Positions 17,259 to 59,780 of a stretch of 64,000 nt of DNA are shown here, in pieces; the first letter of the stretch is position 1; each line of letters opens with the position of its first letter. The notes under the pieces were generated by a model, which saw nothing but the letters and a program-made list of their open reading frames with translations, did not search any database and had not been told where the DNA came from. The stretch is from positions 1 through 64,000 of the forward strand of contig CAMBZJ010000010.1 in the NCBI GenBank assembly GCA_945872365.1. Direction: 5' to 3'. The DNA comes from Klebsiella pneumoniae (GTDB lineage: Bacteria > Desulfobacterota > Binatia > UBA12015). Both the position numbers and the translations under genes were made by a program.

Positions 17259-18413
17259 TCAGCGCACCGGGTCGGCCACGTAGTTCATGATTTCGGGGGC
17301 GATGTTGCGGGCGAGCGTCGCGTCGTACTCGCGGATCCCCTTCAGGTAGCGCCCGAAGAGCGCGACCGAGTAGGTGTCGACGACGTCCCAGACCTCCATC
17401 GACTCGACGAAGGCAAAGGGCGAGCCGTCCGAGAAGCGCGTCGCGTTGCCGCAGCCGTCGCTGTTGCCGATGCCGAGCCCGGTGTAGCAGGCGAAGCTGA
17501 AGCTGTAGTGGCCGGCGTCGGGGAATTCACCGAGGAAGCGCGGGCCCGGCAGCAGGACGTAGCTGTCGCGGATCGCCTGGTCGGCGTCCTCGCCGATCAT
17601 CTTGTCCTCGGTGGCGAGGAGAAGCATCGTCGCGGCCGAGTAGGAGGGGCCGATCACGCTGGTGAGCGCCATCGGCAGGGCGGCGCCGACGCGCTCGTCC
17701 TGGCTCGCGACCTCGACGCTCGTGTACGCTCCGAAGGAGTGGCCGGTCACGCCGAAGGGCTTCGTCGTGTCGATCCAGTCGTAGAAGGGCGAGGAGCGGT
17801 CCGCGGTGAACCGCGTCATCTCGTCGTAGACGAAGCGGATGTCGAGTGGCCGGTCGATGCGCAATTGCGCCGGCGACTCGCTTCCGTCGAAGTAGGTGTT
17901 GCCCTGGTGATCAGGCGCGACGACGACGAAGCCGTGGCTCGCGAGGTGCTCGCACTGGAAGGTGTTCTGGAACCGGATGCCGCTCGAGCCGTGCGAGAAG
18001 GCGATGAGCGGGAACGGCCCGCCGGGTGCGACGGGGACGTCGCGAATGGCGACGAGCGGGACCGTCGCGTCCTTGGCGAGAAAGGCGAGTTCGGGCGGCA
18101 GGTAGCTCTCGGCCGGCGCCGCCGGCAGTCCGCGTGCCGACTCGGCGGCCGGATACCAGACCTCGGTCTGCAGCGTGCGACCGCGCGCGGCGTCGAAGAG
18201 GATGACGCGCGTCACGCCGACGGCATAAGGGCCCGGTGCCGCCGGGTCCGCGGCGATCGGGCCGGGGAGGCTAGACGACGAGTCGCCGCATGCCGCGATC
18301 CACAGCGCGACGAGCAGCGTCGCGGCGTTCGGCAGGTGCCGCCGCGCGAACCCGCGCAGGGGACCCCGCTCGCGGAGCAGGTCGGGCGCATGGTGGGGGT
18401 GCGAATTCGGCAT
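17259..18413 (-). CDS. Lipoprotein alpha/beta hydrolase (PAF-acetylhydrolase/dienelactone-hydrolase-like)
   Basis: The 384-aa product has a lipoprotein signal ending in LWIAA-C42 followed by GDSSSS. The catalytic region shows the oxyanion block FPLIAFSHGSSG and the nucleophile elbow GVTGHSFGAYTS. The HxGxxG-like SHGSSG plus GHSFGG-type elbow resembles the PAF-acetylhydrolase group, which cleaves short or oxidised acyl esters. A histidine in DAGHYSFSF near residue 300 is the likely third member of the triad. It diverges from the DUF35 operon across a 224-base region. Confidence 0.8.
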   Translation of the reverse strand: MPNSHPHHAPDLLRERGPLRGFARRHLPNAATLLVALWIAACGDSSSSLPGPIAADPAAPGPYAVGVTRVILFDAARGRTLQTEVWYPAAESARGLPAAPAESYLPPELAFLAKDATVPLVAIRDVPVAPGGPFPLIAFSHGSSGIRFQNTFQCEHLASHGFVVVAPDHQGNTYFDGSESPAQLRIDRPLDIRFVYDEMTRFTADRSSPFYDWIDTTKPFGVTGHSFGAYTSVEVASQDERVGAALPMALTSVIGPSYSAATMLLLATEDKMIGEDADQAIRDSYVLLPGPRFLGEFPDAGHYSFSFACYTGLGIGNSDGCGNATRFSDGSPFAFVESMEVWDVVDTYSVALFGRYLKGIREYDATLARNIAPEIMNYVADPVR

Positions 18414-18509: not shown

Positions 18510-18538
18510 TTGACGAGCGAACGTTTGGTCGAGTATCG
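18510..18538 (+). promoter_or_regulatory. Candidate promoter of the acyl-CoA operon with overlapping TetR-type palindrome
   Basis: TTGACG (18510-18515), a 17-base spacer and GTATCG (18533-18538) form a modest sigma70-type promoter about 100 bases before the first DUF35 gene. Bases 18514-18531 form an imperfect 18-base palindrome centred on AACGTT (14 of 18 positions symmetric), which fills the spacer. AACGTT-centred palindromes of this size are usual for TetR-family repressors of lipid catabolism. No regulator gene is in this window. Confidence 0.45.
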
Positions 18539-18637
18539 CGGGGACTCCGGTGACGGCGTCGTCGAGGCGCCGGCGCCGTCAGCCACCGAGACCGACCGCC
18601 CTCCCGTGCCCCCGTGCCGGAACAGGAGTCCTGCCGC

Positions 18638-19108
18638 GTGAAGACCTACCCGAAGCCGCAGACGATCGAGCCGATGAGCCAGCGGATGACCGTGGCGTTC
18701 CCCTACAAGCGATCGACCGGCGAGATCGTCGGACGCTTCCTCGCGGGCCTGAAGGACCAGAAGAAGATCTGGGGTCGCCGGGTCGCGGGGCAGGGCGTGG
18801 TGGTCCCGCCGCAGTCCTACTCCGAGGTGGATGCCTCGGCCGGCGGCGAATGGGTCGAGGTAGCCGACACCGGCACCGTGACCGCCGTCGCCGAGGTCGC
18901 GAGTCCGATCGCGGACCTGCATCCCGCCTCGGAGCGCTTTGCCTTCGTGCTGGTCAAACTCGACGGCGCCGACACCGCGATTGCCCACATCGTGCGCCAT
19001 GGACTCGACCGCTTGAAGGTCGGCAGTCGGGTGCGTGCCGTCTGGGCTCCCGACGACCGGCGCAAGGGCACGATCCGCGACATCGAAGGCTTCGAGATCG
19101 CCGGTTGA
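18638..19108 (+). CDS. DUF35 OB-fold protein without zinc-ribbon cysteines (first of two)
   Basis: The GTG at 18638 has AGGAG (18624-18628) upstream. The 156-aa product has the DUF35 layout: an N-terminal helix (GRFLAGLKDQKKIWG), a degenerate zinc-ribbon region where the CxxC pairs are replaced (GRRVAGQGVVVPPQSY), and an OB-fold (GEWVEVADTGTVTAV, KLDGADTAIAHIV, GSRVRAVW). DUF35 proteins form complexes with thiolase-fold enzymes, for example ChsH2 with the aldolase Ltp2. The missing cysteines suggest a structural rather than metal-binding ribbon. It leads a five-gene operon. Confidence 0.8.
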   Translation: MKTYPKPQTIEPMSQRMTVAFPYKRSTGEIVGRFLAGLKDQKKIWGRRVAGQGVVVPPQSYSEVDASAGGEWVEVADTGTVTAVAEVASPIADLHPASERFAFVLVKLDGADTAIAHIVRHGLDRLKVGSRVRAVWAPDDRRKGTIRDIEGFEIAG

Positions 19109-19133
19109 ACCGGCCACCGTGGAGGAGTCCCCG

Positions 19134-19634
19134 ATGAGCGAACCACCGAAGGAGCGCGTCAAGTACATCGACACGAACCTGAACCTGCCGTATCACTACT
19201 ACGCCGGCGACTACAAGGCTCTCTACCTGCGCGCTCTGAAGGAGAGGAAGATCCTCGGCTCGCGCTGCAGCGTGACCGGCAGGGTCTTCGTGCCGCCGGT
19301 GATCAACTCGCCGGAGAGCCTCGCGCCCTGCAACGAACTCGTCGAGTTGCCCCACTGCGGCATCGTCACGACCTTCTGCGTGGTCAACATCCAGGTGTTC
19401 GGACGCGACATCGAGGTGCCCTACGTAGTGGCCTCAGTCGCGCTCGACGGCGCCGACATCTCGCTCTACAGCCTGATCCAGGAGTGCGCCGCGTCCGCGG
19501 TACGCATGGGGACCCGCGTCGAGGCGGTCTGGAAGCCCGACGCCGAGCGCCAGGGCGACCACACCGACATCCGCTACTTCCGTCCGACCGGCGAGCCCGA
19601 TGCGCCGCTCGACAGCTTCATCCATCGGCTCTGA
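19134..19634 (+). CDS. DUF35 OB-fold protein (second of two)
   Basis: GGAGG at 19121-19125 precedes the ATG at 19134. The 166-aa product has the same fold as its neighbour: LYLRALKERKILGSRC, a partial ribbon with Cys at GSRCSVTGRVFVPP and LAPCNE but no complete four-Cys set, then an OB-fold (GIVTTFCVVNI, ALDGADISLYSLIQEC, GTRVEAVWKP). Two consecutive DUF35 genes followed by two thiolase-fold genes suggest two DUF35-thiolase partner pairs. The following gene starts 1 base after this stop. Confidence 0.8.
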   Translation: MSEPPKERVKYIDTNLNLPYHYYAGDYKALYLRALKERKILGSRCSVTGRVFVPPVINSPESLAPCNELVELPHCGIVTTFCVVNIQVFGRDIEVPYVVASVALDGADISLYSLIQECAASAVRMGTRVEAVWKPDAERQGDHTDIRYFRPTGEPDAPLDSFIHRL

Positions 19635-19635
19635 G

Positions 19636-20772
19636 GTGAACGTGACCAAGCTGCGAAACGTGGCGGTGGTGGGCTTCGCGCAGGCGCCGATCGTCGCCGC
19701 CGACGAGCACCACACCAGCCCCGAGATGCTCTACCCGGTCGTCCGCGCCGCGCTCGAGTCCGCCGGACTCGAACGCAAGGACGTCGACTACCAGTGCGCC
19801 GGCTCATCGGACTACGTCGACGGTCGCGCCTTCAGCTTCAGCCAGGTGCTCGAGGTCATGGGCTCATGGCCGCCGGTGCAGGACTCGCACGTCGAGATGG
19901 ACGCGATCTGGGCGGCGCACCTGGTCTGGGTCAAGATGCAGGCCGAGGAGAGCGAGGTCGCAATCGTCTGCGGTTTCGGCAAGACTTCCGAGGGGAGCCC
20001 GGCGCACGTCCTGAACCTGCAACTCGAGCCCTTCTACGCGGCGGCGATCGGGCTCGACCCGACCTCGACCGCCGCCCTCCAGGCGAGCGCCTACATGGCC
20101 CGCACCGGCGTCGACGACCGCGCGCTCGCCGAGATCGCGGCGCGGAACCGCCAGGCGGGAGCCCGCAATCCCGACACGCAGTTGCGCAGCAGCGCGACGG
20201 CCGAGGAGCTCGCCGCGACTCCCTGGGTCGTGAAGCCGCTGCGCGAGGGCTACCTGGCGCCGATCGGCGAGACGGCGACCTGCATGATCCTCGCTGCCGA
20301 GGGCCGCGCCGAGAAGATCTGTGACCGACCGGCCTGGATCCAGGGGGTCGACCACCGGATCGAATTTCAGGCGATCGGTGCCCGCGACCTGACGCGCAGC
20401 GCGAGCACGGCGCTCGCGGCGAAACACGCGTTCGCGACGGCCGGCCTGCCCGACGCTCGGTCGGCCGACGTCGTCGAACTCGGGTCGGCCAACCCGGCCG
20501 AGGAACTCGTCTTGCGCGAGGCGCTGGGCCTGCCGACGACGGCGTCGGCCGCGGGCGGCCCGGTGGTGAACCCGTCGGGGGGAGTGCTCTGCGGCAACCC
20601 GCTCATGAACACGGGCCTGTTGCGGCTCGCCGAGGGCTTCCGCCAACTTTCCGGCCGCGCCGGCGAACGCGGGGTGCCGGGGGCGAAGCGGGCCGTGGTG
20701 CACGCCTCGGCGGGACACTGCCTGCAGCAGAACATCGTCTGGGTGCTCGGCACCGAGCGGAGGTGGACATGA
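19636..20772 (+). CDS. Thiolase-fold protein of the lipid-transfer/Ltp type (first)
   Basis: The 378-aa product (GTG 19636) has the thiolase fold: NVAVVGFAQAP at the start, AALESAGLERKDVDYQ, and C-terminal VNPSGGVLCGNPLMNTGL. At the place where thiolases have their nucleophilic cysteine it has DSHVEMDAIWAA, the pattern I associate with Ltp3-like proteins of steroid catabolism clusters. A canonical thiolytic mechanism is therefore unlikely; an aldolase-like or scaffold role is possible. It is coupled to both neighbours: 1 base after the DUF35 gene and an ATGA overlap with the next. Confidence 0.8.
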   Translation: MNVTKLRNVAVVGFAQAPIVAADEHHTSPEMLYPVVRAALESAGLERKDVDYQCAGSSDYVDGRAFSFSQVLEVMGSWPPVQDSHVEMDAIWAAHLVWVKMQAEESEVAIVCGFGKTSEGSPAHVLNLQLEPFYAAAIGLDPTSTAALQASAYMARTGVDDRALAEIAARNRQAGARNPDTQLRSSATAEELAATPWVVKPLREGYLAPIGETATCMILAAEGRAEKICDRPAWIQGVDHRIEFQAIGARDLTRSASTALAAKHAFATAGLPDARSADVVELGSANPAEELVLREALGLPTTASAAGGPVVNPSGGVLCGNPLMNTGLLRLAEGFRQLSGRAGERGVPGAKRAVVHASAGHCLQQNIVWVLGTERRWT

Positions 20773-21920
20773 AGCGGCCTGTCGCGGTGGTCGGCGTCGG
20801 GCAGACGCACCACACGTCCAAGCGCGGCGACGTGAACGTCGCCGAACTCGTGCGCGAAGCCGTCGATCGGGCGCTGGTCGACGCCGGCCTCCAGCACGAC
20901 GACATCGACGCCATCGTGATGGGCAAGGCGCCCGACCCGCTCGAGGGCATCATGCAGCCCGAGCAGTATCTGGCCGGGGCGCTCGGCGCGCATATGAAGC
21001 CGATCATCCGCGTCCACACGGCGGGTTCGGTGGGCTGCACGACCGCGCTCACCGCCGCGACGCACGTCGCCTCGGGCCTCTACGGCCGCATCCTGGCGAT
21101 CGCCTTCGAGAAGCAGTCCGAGGGCAACGCGATGTGGGCGTTGTCGCCGAACTACGCCTTCACGCAACCGATGGTCGCCGGTGCGGGCGGCTTTTTCGCT
21201 CCCTACTGCCGCGCCTACATTGCGCGCAGCGGGGCGCCCGGTCACATCGGTGCGGTGGTGGCGGCCAACGCACGCGAGAACGCGAGCCGCAACGAGTACG
21301 CACACCTCCGCGACCCGATGACCGTCGAGGACGCCCTGAACTCGCCCATGCTCTGGGAGCCGATCCGCCTCTCCGAGACCTGCCCGTCCTCCGACGGTGC
21401 GATCGCACTCGTGATGTCGAACGAGGACCACGCGCGGCGCGGTCCTCGCAAGCCCGCCTGGCTCAAGGCGGGTGCCACGTTCACCGAGCCGATGTACGTT
21501 CCCGGTCGCGATCAGGTGAGCCCGCTCGCGGGTCGCACCTGCGCGAAGTGGGTCTACGAGAAGGCGGGTATCCGCGACCCGTGGAACGAGATCCAGGTCG
21601 CCGAGATCTACGTCCCGTTCTCCTGGTACGAGCCGATGTGGCTCGAAAACCTGGGCTTCGCCCCCCTCAACGAGGGCTGGAAGGTCGTCGATCGGGGCGA
21701 CCAGAAGATGGGCCGCCACCTGCCGATCAACCCCTCGGGAGGGGTGCTCAACACCAATCCGATCGGTGCCTCGGGCATGCTGCGCTTCGGTGAGGCTGCG
21801 CTTCAGGTGATGGGCCGCGCCGGCGAGCACCAGGTCGGGGGCGTGAAGACGGCGCTCGGTCACGCCTACGGCGGCGGCGCGCAGTACTTCTCGATCGGGA
21901 TCCTCGGCGCGGAACTCTGA
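20769..21920 (+). CDS. Thiolase-fold protein of the SCP2/Ltp type (second)
   Basis: The ATG at 20769 overlaps the previous stop, and GGAGGT lies just upstream (20759-20764). The 383-aa product reads RPVAVVGVGQTHHT, KPIIRVHTAGSVGCTTAL and KTALGHAYGGGAQ. The VHTAGSVG segment stands where typical SCP2 thiolases have NNNCSTG, so the nucleophilic Cys is replaced by Ala; the C-terminal His block is kept. SCP2-type proteins with this change include the retro-aldolase Ltp2, which works with a DUF35 partner on cholesterol side-chain intermediates. The assignment here is by analogy. Confidence 0.8.
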   Translation: MKRPVAVVGVGQTHHTSKRGDVNVAELVREAVDRALVDAGLQHDDIDAIVMGKAPDPLEGIMQPEQYLAGALGAHMKPIIRVHTAGSVGCTTALTAATHVASGLYGRILAIAFEKQSEGNAMWALSPNYAFTQPMVAGAGGFFAPYCRAYIARSGAPGHIGAVVAANARENASRNEYAHLRDPMTVEDALNSPMLWEPIRLSETCPSSDGAIALVMSNEDHARRGPRKPAWLKAGATFTEPMYVPGRDQVSPLAGRTCAKWVYEKAGIRDPWNEIQVAEIYVPFSWYEPMWLENLGFAPLNEGWKVVDRGDQKMGRHLPINPSGGVLNTNPIGASGMLRFGEAALQVMGRAGEHQVGGVKTALGHAYGGGAQYFSIGILGAEL

Positions 21921-21934
21921 AGGGGAGCAAGGCC

Positions 21935-22747
21935 ATGTCGGAACCAGCCGTCGTCTACGAGAAGAAGGAAGGCGTCGCCCTCGTGCGGATGAACCGCCCG
22001 CAGGTGCGCAACGCGATGAACGCCGAGATGCTCTGCCGGCTCTCCGATGCCTGGCAGGACGTGAGCGACGATCCCGAGGTCCGCTGCGCGATCCTGACCG
22101 GCACCGGCGACGAGGCCTTCTGCGCCGGGGCCGACCTCGGCGACTTCATCCCCATGATGCAGGGCTTCAAGCCGCCCAAGGACGAGTGGGACGAGCGCGC
22201 CAAGGCCGACCCGGGTATCATCTTCAAGGGACTCCTGCGCGGCTTCGACGTCATGAAGCCGATCATCGCCGCGGTGAACGGCCACTCCTACGCGGGCGGC
22301 ACCGAGATTCTGCAGGCGACCGACATCCGGATCGTCGCCGACGAGGCGCGTCTCGCGATCTCGGAGGTGAAGCGCAGCCTGTTCCCGATGGGCGGCTCGA
22401 CCGTCCGGCTGGTGCGCCAGATCCCCTGGGCGATCGCGATGGAGATCCTGCTCACCGGCGAGCCGATCACGGCGCAGGAGGCGCATCGCATCGGCTTCGT
22501 GAACCGGGTCGTGCCGCGGTCACAGGTGCTGCCCGAGGCGCTGCGCTTCGCGGGGATCCTCGCGGAGAACGGGCCGCTCGCGGTGCAGGCGGTCAAGAAG
22601 GCCGTGCTGGCGGGGAGCGGGCTTTCGATCGAGGCGGCGCTCGGGAAGGAAATGGAAATCGGGATCTCGGTCTCGGCGTCCGAGGATGCGCGCGAGGGGC
22701 CGCGTGCGTTCAAGGAGAAGCGCAAGGCGGTTTACAAGGGGCGCTGA
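21935..22747 (+). CDS. Enoyl-CoA hydratase/isomerase (crotonase family)
   Basis: The 270-aa product starts at the ATG at 21935 with GGGGAG at 21922-21927. It shows the crotonase pattern: RPQVRNAMN, GDEAFCAGADLGDF (oxyanion hole), KPIIAAVNGHSYAGGTEIL (second oxyanion half) and EVKRSLFPMGGSTVRL. These enzymes hydrate or isomerise enoyl-CoA. It is the last gene of the operon that begins at 18638, 14 bases after the second thiolase-fold gene. Its presence with thiolase-fold and DUF35 proteins supports a beta-oxidation-like side-chain pathway. Confidence 0.88.
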   Translation: MSEPAVVYEKKEGVALVRMNRPQVRNAMNAEMLCRLSDAWQDVSDDPEVRCAILTGTGDEAFCAGADLGDFIPMMQGFKPPKDEWDERAKADPGIIFKGLLRGFDVMKPIIAAVNGHSYAGGTEILQATDIRIVADEARLAISEVKRSLFPMGGSTVRLVRQIPWAIAMEILLTGEPITAQEAHRIGFVNRVVPRSQVLPEALRFAGILAENGPLAVQAVKKAVLAGSGLSIEAALGKEMEIGISVSASEDAREGPRAFKEKRKAVYKGR

Positions 22748-22814: not shown

Positions 22815-23684
22815 TCAGAGGAGGGCGCTGGAGGTGCCGACGAGGGTTTTGACGCCGTCGGGCTTTTCGCACCAGACGTCGCAGTGGCGTCGCGTCTTGT
22901 CGCCCTCGGGCACGTCCTCGCGGACCCGCCCGCGCACCGCGACGACGTCGCTGCCCCAGACCACGTTCACCAGGCGGACGTCGAGTTTGCCGCCGCACTG
23001 CCAGCCGTCGCCGAAACTGCGCGTCATCAGCTCCGAGACGAAGCAGATCGACATCATCCCCTGCACCACGACGTCGGGAAAGCCCAGCGCCAGCGCCATC
23101 TCCCGGTCGTTGTGGTAGTTTTTGCCGGGGCCGGAGAACGCGTCGCACATCTCCTGGGTGATCGGTCGCGAAAGCGGATCGAGGTCGGCACCTTCGCCCT
23201 CGCCGACGCGGAAGGTGCGGTCGGAGCGCTTCTCGCGCTCGCGGTCGACAGCAAAGCCCTTGCGCTCGTCCTGGACGAGGAAGCTCTGGTGGGTGCGGCC
23301 GCGCTGCAACCAGCGGCCGTCGGGGGTGGTGACGAGCACCTCGTTCACGATGTAGTCGCGATCGCGCTTGCGGTAGCGCTCGACGACGGTCGAGCGGGTG
23401 CGGATGTGCTCACCGACGCGCATCGGGTGAAAGAACTCCCACTCCTGGCGCGCGTGCAGGTTGCCGAAGATGTTGGGCAGGTACCAGCCGAGGTCCGCAT
23501 AGACCTCGGAATGGAAGAGCAGCGCCGGCGCGCCCGTGCCCGGCCCGGGCGGCTCTTCGCCCGTCCAGCCGAAGCGGTCGGAGGTTCCGGTCGCGTGTCG
23601 CCGCAGCAGGTCCGGGCCGATCGCGTACTCGTGGCCGCCCATGTCGCGTCCGACGAAGACACCTCGCGGGTCATGGAAATCCAT
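22815..23684 (-). CDS. MaoC-like/FAS1-type hot-dog dehydratase
   Basis: Starting at 23684 (MDFHDPRG, with a GGGAGG 9 bases upstream) the product is 289 aa with two hot-dog halves. The C-terminal half contains ITQEMCDAFSGPGKNYHNDREMALALGFPDVVVQGM, which matches the MaoC hydratase block with Asp and His catalytic candidates in the HND and GFPDVVVQG region. The family hydrates enoyl-CoA (R-specific). It reads against the DUF35 operon and diverges from the alpha/beta hydrolase, 160 bases away. It likely belongs to the same catabolic region. Confidence 0.78.
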   Translation of the reverse strand: MDFHDPRGVFVGRDMGGHEYAIGPDLLRRHATGTSDRFGWTGEEPPGPGTGAPALLFHSEVYADLGWYLPNIFGNLHARQEWEFFHPMRVGEHIRTRSTVVERYRKRDRDYIVNEVLVTTPDGRWLQRGRTHQSFLVQDERKGFAVDREREKRSDRTFRVGEGEGADLDPLSRPITQEMCDAFSGPGKNYHNDREMALALGFPDVVVQGMMSICFVSELMTRSFGDGWQCGGKLDVRLVNVVWGSDVVAVRGRVREDVPEGDKTRRHCDVWCEKPDGVKTLVGTSSALL

Positions 23685-23844
23685 GGTCAGCTCGCCTCCC
23701 GGGATGGAGCGAACCACGCCGGGCAAGCGGGTGTCCAGCGCGACGCTGCGACGCGGTGGCCTCCTCCGGTATAGGCTCGTGGCGGGCCGCGCCTGACGCG
23801 CGGCCGCAGGAGTCCGCGATCCGCGGACGGGGAGGGTCCATACC

Positions 23845-24687
23845 ATGGCGACGGTCCGGGTCGGCGATATCGACGTCTACTACGAGGAGCACGGCAGCGG
23901 TCCGCCCCTTCTCTTGATCATGGGCCTCGCGACCGACTCGACGGCATGGGCCTTCCAGTTGCCGGAGTTCGCCCGGCACTACCGCGCGATCGCCTTCGAC
24001 AACCGCGGCGTGGGCCGTACCTCGAAGCCCGCCGGACCCTACTCGATCCACCAGATGGCCGACGACGCCACGGGCGTCATGGACGCGCTCGGCGTCGCCC
24101 GTGCCCACGTGCTCGGCGTCTCGATGGGCGGCATGATCGCCCAGGAACTGGCGCTGCGTCATCCCGAGCGCGTCTCGGCTCTCGTGCTGGCCTGCACCTT
24201 CCCGGAGCCCGACGCGACCGTCGAGGACCGGCGCAGCTTCATGGTCGGGCAGCTCGGCGGGCAGGTCTCCGCCGACGGCGAACTCCAGATCGACGTCGCC
24301 AGCCTGAACCCGTTGCTCTTCGTCCAGCAGATGCTGCCCGCGGTCTTCAACCCGTCGTTCATCGCGAGCGACCTGCCGAAGCTCATGCAGGTGTTCGCGG
24401 GTGCCCTGCAGTACGGGTTCAGCATGGAGGCGATCCTCGGGCAGGTCGCGGCCGTCATGGGGCATCGCGCGACCGACCGGCTGCACCGGATCGCCGTGCC
24501 GACGCTCGTCCTCACGGGCGACGCCGACCAACTCGTCGCGCCCTCGAACTCCGACATCCTCGCGCGGGAGATCCCCGGTGCGAAGCTGGTGAAGGTCCCC
24601 GGCGGCAGCCACGGCTTCAACTTCGAGACACCCGAGGTCTTCAACCGCGAGGTGATCGACTTCCTCGCGGGCGTTCCGACGCCCTGA
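23845..24687 (+). CDS. Alpha/beta-fold hydrolase
   Basis: The 280-aa product has a complete set of alpha/beta hydrolase marks: PPLLLIMGLATDS (oxyanion loop), FDNRGVGRTSKP, nucleophile elbow LGVSMGG with Ser93, a GDADQLV acid and a GGSHGFN histidine. Such enzymes open lactones, esters or ring C-C bonds (the meta-cleavage hydrolase group is related). It diverges from the MaoC-like gene. The substrate is unknown; the neighbourhood suggests an acyl or ring-cleavage product. Confidence 0.85.
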   Translation: MATVRVGDIDVYYEEHGSGPPLLLIMGLATDSTAWAFQLPEFARHYRAIAFDNRGVGRTSKPAGPYSIHQMADDATGVMDALGVARAHVLGVSMGGMIAQELALRHPERVSALVLACTFPEPDATVEDRRSFMVGQLGGQVSADGELQIDVASLNPLLFVQQMLPAVFNPSFIASDLPKLMQVFAGALQYGFSMEAILGQVAAVMGHRATDRLHRIAVPTLVLTGDADQLVAPSNSDILAREIPGAKLVKVPGGSHGFNFETPEVFNREVIDFLAGVPTP

Positions 24688-54428: not shown

Positions 54429-55682
<1,254 letters not shown>

Positions 55683-55692
55683 AAGGGGCCCC

Positions 55693-58143
<2,451 letters not shown>

Positions 58144-58222
58144 CGGAACGCGATCCGCGTCCCGGGACTCCATGGTGGCGCCCTGGGATGCGGTTGCCCA
58201 TGTGCTCGTCGCGGCCTCGATA

Positions 58223-58243
58223 CCGCCCCCGGCCCGGGGGCGG
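58223..58243 (+). terminator. Inverted repeat after lon
   Basis: CCGCCCCCGG and CCGGGGGCGG, separated by one C, form a 10-base inverted repeat about 80 bases after the lon stop. A very GC-rich hairpin without a T run; it could end lon transcription before the HU promoter. Confidence 0.4.
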
Positions 58244-58360
58244 GCGTGGCTTGAGCCGGTCCGGTCCGGCGCGGCACGCGTCGGCGATCCGCTTCGGGGC
58301 GCAGCGATTGCGGTCGGGCGTCGAGCCTGATAGCGGGAATCGGCTTCGAAGGGGGGACCG

Positions 58361-58633
58361 ATGACCAAGGCAGACCTGATCGATGCGGTGGCGACGAAGA
58401 TCGACCTCCCGAAGACGACGGCCGAACGGGCCGTGAACTTAGTCTTCGACGATATCGTCGCGGCGCTCAAGGCGAGCGACAAGGTGAATATCTCGGGATT
58501 CGGGACGTTCACGGTGTCGGAGCGCAAGGCCCGGCAGGGCCGCAACCCCAAGACCGGCGAGACGATCGACATCCCGGCGTCCCGGGCGGCGAAGTTCAAG
58601 CCCGGCAAGGTCCTCAAGGACTCGATCAACTGA
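58361..58633 (+). CDS. DNA-binding protein HU
   Basis: The 90-aa product is a standard HU: N-terminal MTKADLIDAVATKIDLPK, a central SGFGTFTVSERKARQGRNPKTG (the DNA-contacting arm with GRNP) and C-terminal ASRAAKFKPGKVLKD. It compacts and bends DNA as a dimer. It starts at the ATG at 58361, after GGGGGG at 58351-58356-type sequence, and is followed by the two tRNAs. Confidence 0.95.
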   Translation: MTKADLIDAVATKIDLPKTTAERAVNLVFDDIVAALKASDKVNISGFGTFTVSERKARQGRNPKTGETIDIPASRAAKFKPGKVLKDSIN

Positions 58634-58668
58634 CCCCTTCTGCTGGCCGGGGGTCGTTGGTTCAGCCG

Positions 58669-58741
58669 GGGCGGTTAGCTCAGCTGGCAGAGCATCGGCC
58701 TTACAAGCCGGAGGTCATCCGTTCGATCCGGATACCGCCCA
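58669..58741 (+). tRNA. tRNA-Val (anticodon TAC)
   Basis: Acceptor GGGCGGT pairs with ACCGCCC (58734-58740). The anticodon loop CTTACAA gives anticodon TAC. The 3' CCA is not encoded. Confidence 0.93.
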
Positions 58742-58760
58742 CTGTTCCTTGCCGACACCC

Positions 58761-58779
58761 CGTGGGCCTGTTACCCACG
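58761..58779 (+). other. Small hairpin between tRNA-Val and tRNA-Asp
   Basis: CGTGGG and CCCACG are separated by CCTGTTA. The 6-base stem lies in the spacer between two tRNAs and may help the processing of the joint transcript. Confidence 0.35.
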
Positions 58780-58789
58780 CCGGAGTTGC

Positions 58790-58863
<74 letters not shown>

Positions 58864-58932
58864 CTCATTTTATTCAATATCTCGAAAGGATCGGCTCAGC
58901 CGGGGAATCTCCCGGCCGTCGACAGAAGGCCT

Positions 58933-59379
58933 ATGGGATCCAAGACGACGGTGGTGAGCCGGGAGGACGCACTTTCCCAGCGGAAGTGGTTCGTGATCGA
59001 CGCCGACGGCCGGGCCCTCGGACGTCTCGCGACCCAGGCCGCCGGGTTGCTCCGCGGCAAGGGCAAGCCCATCTTTTCGCCGCACATCGACTGCGGCGAC
59101 TTCGTGATCGTCCTCAACGCCTCCAAGGTGAAGCTGACGGGGGCCAAGTTGAAGGACAAGATCTACTACCGCCATTCCGAGTATCCGGGTGGCTTGCGCG
59201 CGACGGCGGCCGGCAAGGTTCTCGCGGAGCGGCCTGAGCGCATGGTGCGCGAGGCGATCGCCGGGATGCTTCCCAAGAACCGGTTGAGCAAGCGCCTGAT
59301 CACCAAGCTGAAGGTCTACAGGGGCAACGAGCATCCCCACGGCGCCCAACAGGCGGTCGCGGTCGCGGCGAAGGACTGA
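58933..59379 (+). CDS. rplM: 50S ribosomal protein L13
   Basis: The 148-aa product matches L13 throughout: [20 protein letters not shown] at residues 18-37, [16 protein letters not shown] and the [14 protein letters not shown] block, then NEHPHGAQ at the end. It helps assemble the large subunit. rpsI follows 2 bases after the stop, the standard L13-S9 pair. Confidence 0.96.
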
Positions 59380-59381
59380 AC

Positions 59382-59780
59382 ATGGCAGAGCGAGCGCAGA
59401 CGCATCGTGCGACGGGCAAGCGCAAGACCGCGGTGGCCCAGGTGAGACTCCTCCCCGGAGCTGGCCGGATCGAGGTCAACAGCCGGGCCCTCGACGAGTA
59501 TTTCGGCCGCGAGACCTCGCGGATGATCGTGAACCAGCCGTTCGAGGTCACCGAGCTTCTCGGGCGCTACGACGTCGCGGTCCGGGTTCGCGGGGGCGGC
59601 GTGTCGGCGCAGGCGTCGGCGATCCGCCACGGCATCGCCCGGGCGCTCCTCGAGGCGGACAGTGGCCTCCGGCCCGCGCTCAAGAAGGCCGGTTACCTGA
59701 CCCGCGACTCCCGCGAGGTCGAGCGCAAGAAGTACGGTCGCCACAAGGCACGCAAGCGGCCGCAGTACTCCAAGCGCTGA
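59382..59780 (+). CDS. rpsI: 30S ribosomal protein S9
   Basis: The 132-aa product has [20 protein letters not shown] at the start, [23 protein letters not shown] in the middle, and the C-terminal [25 protein letters not shown] tail that reaches the P-site tRNA. It is coupled to rplM. Confidence 0.96.

Follow-up and report, generated by a model that had tools for sequence, protein, structure and literature searches.

A divergent Ltp3/Ltp4-type operon in Binatia predicted to encode a heteromeric hydratase–aldolase

The thiolase-fold proteins Ltp3 and Ltp4 are reported to act as aldol-lyases on C24-branched sterol side chains, and their genes are induced on phytosterol together with echA19 and fadD19 (PMC6593523, PMC4761994, PMC6273163). 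Both genes are reported to be essential for the same substrates, according to the title of a 2012 Rhodococcus paper that PMC10398937 cites. The open literature that we searched contains genetics only for Ltp3 and Ltp4, with no structure or enzymology. The aldolases Ltp2 and Sal form homodimers that are flanked on either side by a DUF35 protein (PMC11321319, PMC12329534), and in the solved PhlABC complex one thiolase-fold subunit lacks the cysteine, its partner alone is catalytic and the subunits are joined by DUF35 proteins (PMC6392133). Here we describe a five-gene operon in a 64,000-nucleotide stretch of a Binatia genome (contig CAMBZJ010000010.1, positions 1 to 64,000; hereafter referred to as the window), which encodes two DUF35 proteins, two thiolase-fold proteins and an enoyl-coenzyme A (CoA) hydratase. 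The system is a divergent relative of the known phytosterol-degrading system, and is unusual in that the known sterol-ring pathways are not found alongside it. With a probability of about 0.62, we read the operon as one hydratase–aldolase system for a β-branched acyl-CoA, most likely a sterol or sterol-like side chain.

The operon occupies the plus strand and consists of DUF35a (18638–19108, 156 residues, GTG start), DUF35b (19134–19634, 166 residues), an Ltp4-like thiolase-fold subunit (19636–20772, 378 residues, GTG start), an Ltp3-like thiolase-fold subunit (20769–21920, 383 residues) and an EchA19-like enoyl-CoA hydratase of the crotonase type (ECH_1; 21935–22747, 270 residues). The gaps of 25, 1, −4 and 14 bases and the terminal position of the hydratase, as given by a first-pass annotation made from the sequence, proved exact to the base. 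Its identification of two DUF35 and two thiolase-fold proteins is likewise borne out by Pfam, which recognizes the DUF35 OB-fold domain (OB_ChsH2_C, PF01796; cut-off 27.1 bits) in DUF35b (40.2 bits) and, weakly, in DUF35a (29.7 bits), and Thiolase_C_1 in both thiolase-fold proteins. The operon stands alone, with a divergent gene upstream and a convergent MaoC-domain gene downstream.

Family models identify the thiolase-fold proteins as Ltp4 and Ltp3 homologues, and the hydratase as EchA19-like. The Ltp3-like protein scores 584 bits against PRK08313 (NF006180), exceeding the NCBIfam cut-off of 514, and the Ltp4-like protein scores 352 bits against PRK07937 (NF005924). Partly from the actinobacterial gene order, we take these families to be Ltp3 (Rv3523) and Ltp4 (Rv3522) of mycobacteria; the Mycobacterium tuberculosis counterpart set is Rv3521–Rv3523 with Rv3516, and the Rhodococcus counterpart ltp3/ltp4. 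We searched 58 genomes, comprising the window's own (a 3.1-Mb assembly, 97% complete) and its relatives; Ltp4 above the family cut-off occurs in 18 of them and the subtype of the window (about 330–357 bits) in 16, and no genome has both. The nearest NCBIfam model of the hydratase is PRK07799/EchA19 (NF051848; 302 bits, under the cut-off of 400), and its best solved relative is EchA19 (4f47, 236 bits). Glu124 and Glu144, which are catalytic in crotonases, are at their usual places and are invariant in the window's clade.

A comparison with the Ltp3/Ltp4–EchA19 system revealed the same order of the thiolase-fold pair (40–43% for Ltp4 and 58–63% for Ltp3 against actinobacteria), two DUF35 domains directly before ltp4–ltp3 on the same strand, an adjacent EchA19-like hydratase and the same active-site substitutions in Ltp3. 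By contrast, the DUF35 domains here are split between two genes and have incomplete zinc ribbons, the Ltp4-like protein is more eroded and lies under the family cut-off, the proteins form a separate deep clade, no ligase is adjacent in the window genome, and the host genomes are without KstD and rarely have KshA- or HsaC-type genes. The first-pass annotation had named the DUF35–Ltp aldolase pair of cholesterol side-chain degradation, ChsH2–Ltp2, as the nearest described logic. Its retro-aldol reading is supported by the replacement of cysteine by glycine and the invariant tyrosine described below, but ChsH2–Ltp2 is not the nearest relative: Ltp3/Ltp4 with EchA19 is closer, and the genome has a separate Ltp2 operon.

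We read the active-site columns from a joint alignment with SCP2-thiolase and Ltp2, using 37 Ltp3-like and 38 Ltp4-like sequences, with conservation counts that include closely related sequences. The nucleophile column holds glycine (Gly86, in HTAGSVG) in 37 of 37 Ltp3-like sequences, and Met or Gln (SHVEMD or SHVEQD) in all 38 Ltp4-like sequences. The sole invariant cysteine of the Ltp3-like proteins, C205, belongs to a TCPSSDG motif common to SCP2-thiolases, and the alignment of 38 Ltp4-like sequences contains no invariant cysteine. The earlier claim that both thiolase-fold proteins lack the nucleophilic cysteine is therefore upheld, as the alignment also offers no conserved substitute elsewhere; thiolase activity was rejected because neither protein has this residue. 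In every Ltp3-like sequence, the histidine of the HDCF motif is replaced by Tyr281 (codon 21609–21611, in YVPF), which occupies the position of TcLtp2 Tyr294 and CtSal Tyr302, the histidine column of the GHP motif holds Asn330 (37 of 37), and the GHAYGGG motif is invariant. Gly86 and Asn330 set the Ltp3-like protein apart from biosynthetic and degradative thiolases, including SCP2-thiolase, as does the missing cysteine the Ltp4-like protein. Since cysteine is replaced by glycine and Tyr281 is invariant in the 37 sequences, we regard retro-aldol chemistry on a β-branched acyl-CoA as likely, with the Ltp3-like protein as the probable aldolase; His365 and Tyr367 of GHAYGGG are only candidates for its proton donor.

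Similar chemistry is found in two other described systems. ChsH1–ChsH2–Ltp2, which acts on the C3 sterol side chain, also combines a thiolase-fold aldolase lacking the nucleophilic cysteine with a tyrosine at the Tyr294 place and a DUF35 partner. The present proteins differ from it in having YVPF instead of YDHF and Asn330 instead of Tyr344, so that only the Tyr294 equivalent is kept, as well as two different thiolase-fold subunits and a crotonase hydratase in place of MaoC. Shy–Sal, which acts on the C5 bile-acid side chain, shares the retro-aldol logic, the cysteine-to-glycine replacement, the catalytic tyrosine (Tyr302) and the DUF35 contact, but has YDCY where YVPF stands here and Cys304 at the place of Pro283, and a heteromeric pair is expected in the present case. 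The loss of cysteine also bears on a different reading, in which the enzyme would run the aldol reaction towards synthesis, or would catalyse a Claisen-type reaction or an acyl transfer in the manner of PhlABC or the archaeal complex of thiolase, 3-hydroxy-3-methylglutaryl-CoA (HMG-CoA) synthase and DUF35. The architecture is alike, in that two dissimilar thiolase-fold subunits are joined by DUF35 proteins and, in PhlABC, one of them is catalytically dead (PMC6392133). Nevertheless, those enzymes catalyse a different reaction and retain a nucleophilic cysteine in at least one subunit, whereas neither subunit has one here, and the hydratase, together with the acyl-CoA ligase and P450 in relatives, indicates catabolism; we consider this reading highly improbable.

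The Ltp4-like protein keeps none of the catalytic thiolase residues. At the HDCF His/Tyr position, Ltp4-like sequences of the window's clade have Gly (6), Cys (5) or, once each, Ser, Tyr, Leu, Met and Ala; the remaining Ltp4 sequences have His (8), Tyr (8), Ser (3), Thr (2) or Ala (1). Only 35 columns are invariant in the Ltp4-like alignment, compared with 111 in the Ltp3-like alignment, as expected of a scaffold subunit. The Ltp4-like protein is thus probably an inert partner without a catalytic cysteine or tyrosine. This erosion is difficult to reconcile with two independent DUF35–thiolase-fold aldolases of differing substrates, each a homomeric Ltp2-like pair, as the first-pass annotation had entertained. 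The gene content of two DUF35 and two thiolase-fold genes would suit such pairs, and the known Ltp2 and Sal aldolases are homodimers with two copies of one DUF35 (PMC12329534, PMC11321319); against them stands the absence of a conserved catalytic Tyr or Cys from the Ltp4-like protein, as well as the reported essentiality of both ltp3 and ltp4 for the same substrates, as given in the title of the 2012 paper mentioned above.

The genomic arrangement speaks against two pairs as well. The two DUF35s are fused in four loci from actinobacteria and, as a single reading frame, in the Binatia locus L077. On plasmids of Tsukamurella and Streptomyces clavuligerus, a CoA ligase, a fused two-DUF35 protein (309 and 339 residues, respectively) and two thiolase-fold proteins are encoded with an EchA19-like hydratase alongside, and a translated search found fused DUF35s with the thiolase-fold pair in Nocardia farcinica and Nonomuraea DNA. 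When compared with the fused protein of actinobacteria, DUF35a is most similar to the N-terminal half and DUF35b to the C-terminal half (44–46%). DUF35b matches the rubredoxin-like zinc ribbon PF12172 at 20.3 bits, under the cut-off of 23.2, and in the window's clade three of its four zinc-ribbon cysteine columns hold no cysteine; DUF35a gives no PF12172 match and lacks the zinc-ribbon cysteines. The arrangement of the four-gene unit is not chance, because the order DUF35a–DUF35b–Ltp4–Ltp3 recurs, with all four genes on the same strand, in 32 of the 33 Binatia loci (33 genomes); in the exception, L078, where DUF35a was not found, the adjoining stretch consists of N. In addition, each of the 16 loci of the window's clade shows the same overlap of exactly 4 bases between the Ltp4 and Ltp3 genes. 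The DUF35 fusion and the fixed order argue for one four-part complex rather than two pairs, and, together with the constant overlap and the single aldolase tyrosine, leave the proposal of two pairs unsupported; we consider it improbable. By analogy, the simplest reading is a heteromeric version of the Ltp2/Sal shape, with an Ltp3–Ltp4 centre flanked by DUF35a and DUF35b, and we think it likely that such a four-part heteromer forms.

The window genome is rich in such pairs: its 3.1 Mb contain thirteen DUF35 domains, the Ltp4 thiolase-fold model matches it fourteen times, and its contig C14 carries a further Ltp2-like gene adjoining a DUF35. In a more distant unit on a Cupriavidus necator plasmid (L104:5989–9420), a pair of thiolase-fold genes precedes a pair of DUF35 genes, and the two-plus-two composition is therefore not confined to the Ltp3/Ltp4 family.

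In the proposed pathway, a CYP125-type cytochrome P450, the gene for which is present, and an acyl-CoA ligase, both encoded elsewhere, would yield a C26-acyl-CoA, from which an acyl-CoA dehydrogenase would form the enoyl-CoA. As pathway chemistry suggests, the EchA19-like protein would hydrate this enoyl-CoA to a tertiary 3-hydroxyacyl-CoA, which cannot be oxidized to a 3-ketone, making ordinary thiolysis impossible. The Ltp3–Ltp4 heterodimer, with DUF35a and DUF35b on its flanks, would instead cleave the carbon–carbon bond by a retro-aldol reaction, releasing a ketone and propionyl-CoA. Catalysis would fall to the Ltp3-like protein, whose Tyr281 would act as a base and take the proton from the hydroxyl, whereas the Ltp4-like protein would be a catalytically dead partner in a dimer stapled by the two DUF35s. 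This scheme builds on the observed gene content and order, DUF35 fusions, Tyr281 conservation, loss of thiolase residues and co-occurrence with a P450. The gene order, the fusions and the conservation split between the subunits lead to a direct prediction, namely one four-part complex with one active site, at Tyr281.

The P450 distribution points to a sterol link of the window's subtype. Of the 16 genomes with the subtype, 13 have a CYP125-like P450, counted at at least 56% identity to the one next to the G057 cluster, compared with none of the 42 other genomes (Fisher 2e-10, kinship of the genomes ignored); within the window's own family the figures are 5 of 6 versus 0 of 8. This P450 gene adjoins the operon in four genomes and lies about 20 kb away in two. 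The copy of the window genome (G000:C5:24860–26062) scores 556 bits against CYP125MRCA, which we read as a reconstructed CYP125 ancestor, 349 bits against M. tuberculosis CYP125 and 334 bits against CYP124. A CoA ligase of the PRK07798 family is present in the clusters of both subtypes, and a FadD19-type CoA ligase is linked to the operon in G025, G032, G044 and G052 of the window's clade. Furthermore, the window genome contains an igr-like operon (G000:C1:169118–173209; L100:9083–13216) holding the genes for the last sterol side-chain step, in the order P450, MaoC-like, DUF35, MaoC-like and Ltp2, with the two MaoC-like genes assigned by reading the sequence only. Its Ltp2 scores 573 bits against TcLtp2 and keeps the YDHF and EAY motifs.

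For the sterol rings, we searched for KshA (PF19298), HsaC-type genes (PF22632) and KstD (with a Nocardia farcinica protein as the query). No genome with the window's subtype (0 of 16) has KstD at 44% identity or above, compared with 7 of the 18 genomes with the other subtype (Fisher 0.008, kinship ignored). Among those 16, one has a weak KshA-type match (G057) and another an HsaC-type match (G039). The searches were sensitive enough, since they recovered kshA and hsaC close together in N. farcinica, the positive control, with HsaC confirmed at 577 bits; absence from incomplete assemblies is no proof, yet the 16 genomes agree for KstD. KshA was dropped as a marker, since the Binatia matches score at most 143 bits, whereas the Nocardia protein reaches 296, and many of them probably represent other Rieske oxygenases; KstD provides the better contrast. 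A literature search on Binatia and steroids found nothing useful. The host bacteria seem unable to degrade sterol rings by known routes.

These ring-gene counts fit a reading in which the same hydratase–aldolase machine acts on a non-steroid substrate, such as another polycyclic or a linear isoprenoid, or a branched acyl-CoA with a tertiary β-carbon. The deep separation of the window's subtype points the same way, and the relatives of CYP125 include hydroxylases of methyl-branched lipids, for example CYP124. However, the CYP125 ancestor is a far better match to the P450 than CYP124 is, and the same genome encodes the Ltp2 operon for the last sterol side-chain step; we therefore judge a non-steroid substrate rather unlikely, and lean modestly towards a sterol or sterol-like one. 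The bacteria may use sterol side chains only, sterols with ring chemistry outside the known routes, or another isoprenoid.

Several observations weigh against one sterol-directed hydratase–aldolase. The Ltp4-like protein stays under the curated PRK07937 cut-off of 419 bits, which is reached in 18 other Binatia genomes, and the operon is therefore a variant, rather than a member, of the Ltp3/Ltp4–EchA19 system. A tree of Ltp3-like proteins sets the window's subtype apart as a deep clade with 100/100 support, and places the other Binatia sequences together with those of actinobacteria. Taken together, the low Ltp4 score and the deep clade point to a possible change of substrate. Neither of the second catalytic residues described for such aldolases is kept: Asn330 takes the place of TcLtp2 Tyr344, an equivalence read from the motif by eye, and Pro283 that of CtSal Cys304. 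The window genome has no homologue of the FadD19-type or cluster CoA ligase at E ≤ 1e-120, and none of the KstD, KshA and HsaC-type genes, which makes a complete sterol degrader of the known kind unlikely. AlphaFold2 predictions for the two thiolase-fold proteins, made from alignments of five sequences, reached a mean predicted local distance difference test (pLDDT) score of 34 and yielded no usable model.

A bolder proposal, which we put forward tentatively, is that a deep sister clade of the Ltp3/Ltp4 aldolase, forming an obligate heteromer of a tyrosine-only aldolase and a dead subunit, serves Binatia that remove the side chains of sterols or similar polycyclic lipids and have none of the known ring pathways, the core being degraded by chemistry of another kind or the rings left behind. 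The subtype also marks a group of uncultured bacteria with a sterol side-chain gene set and no known ring pathway, which bears on natural sterol turnover.

Upstream of the operon lies an operator-like near-palindrome, CGAGCGAACGTTTGGTCG (18514–18531, no strand), which reads CGAGCGAACGTTCGGTCG in two other genomes of the genus. It is possibly a binding site for a dimeric repressor, with the TetR type being a guess. With up to three mismatches, the window contains one match versus 0.01 expected, for a pattern derived from the site itself. The exact sequence occurs only once in the 3.1-Mb genome, so no regulon sharing this palindrome was seen.

The gene divergent from the operon (17259–18413, minus strand) encodes an α/β hydrolase resembling PAF-acetylhydrolase and PETase, and two further genomes of the genus keep it in this position (76–79% identity). 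The convergent gene (22815–23846, minus strand) encodes a 343-residue protein with one recognized MaoC domain, possibly a second hydratase, and is also kept in L040 of the same genus. Farther along the window, a housekeeping block (54429–59780) contains genes that read as ClpX-like, Lon-like, HU-like and ribosomal L13/S9-like.

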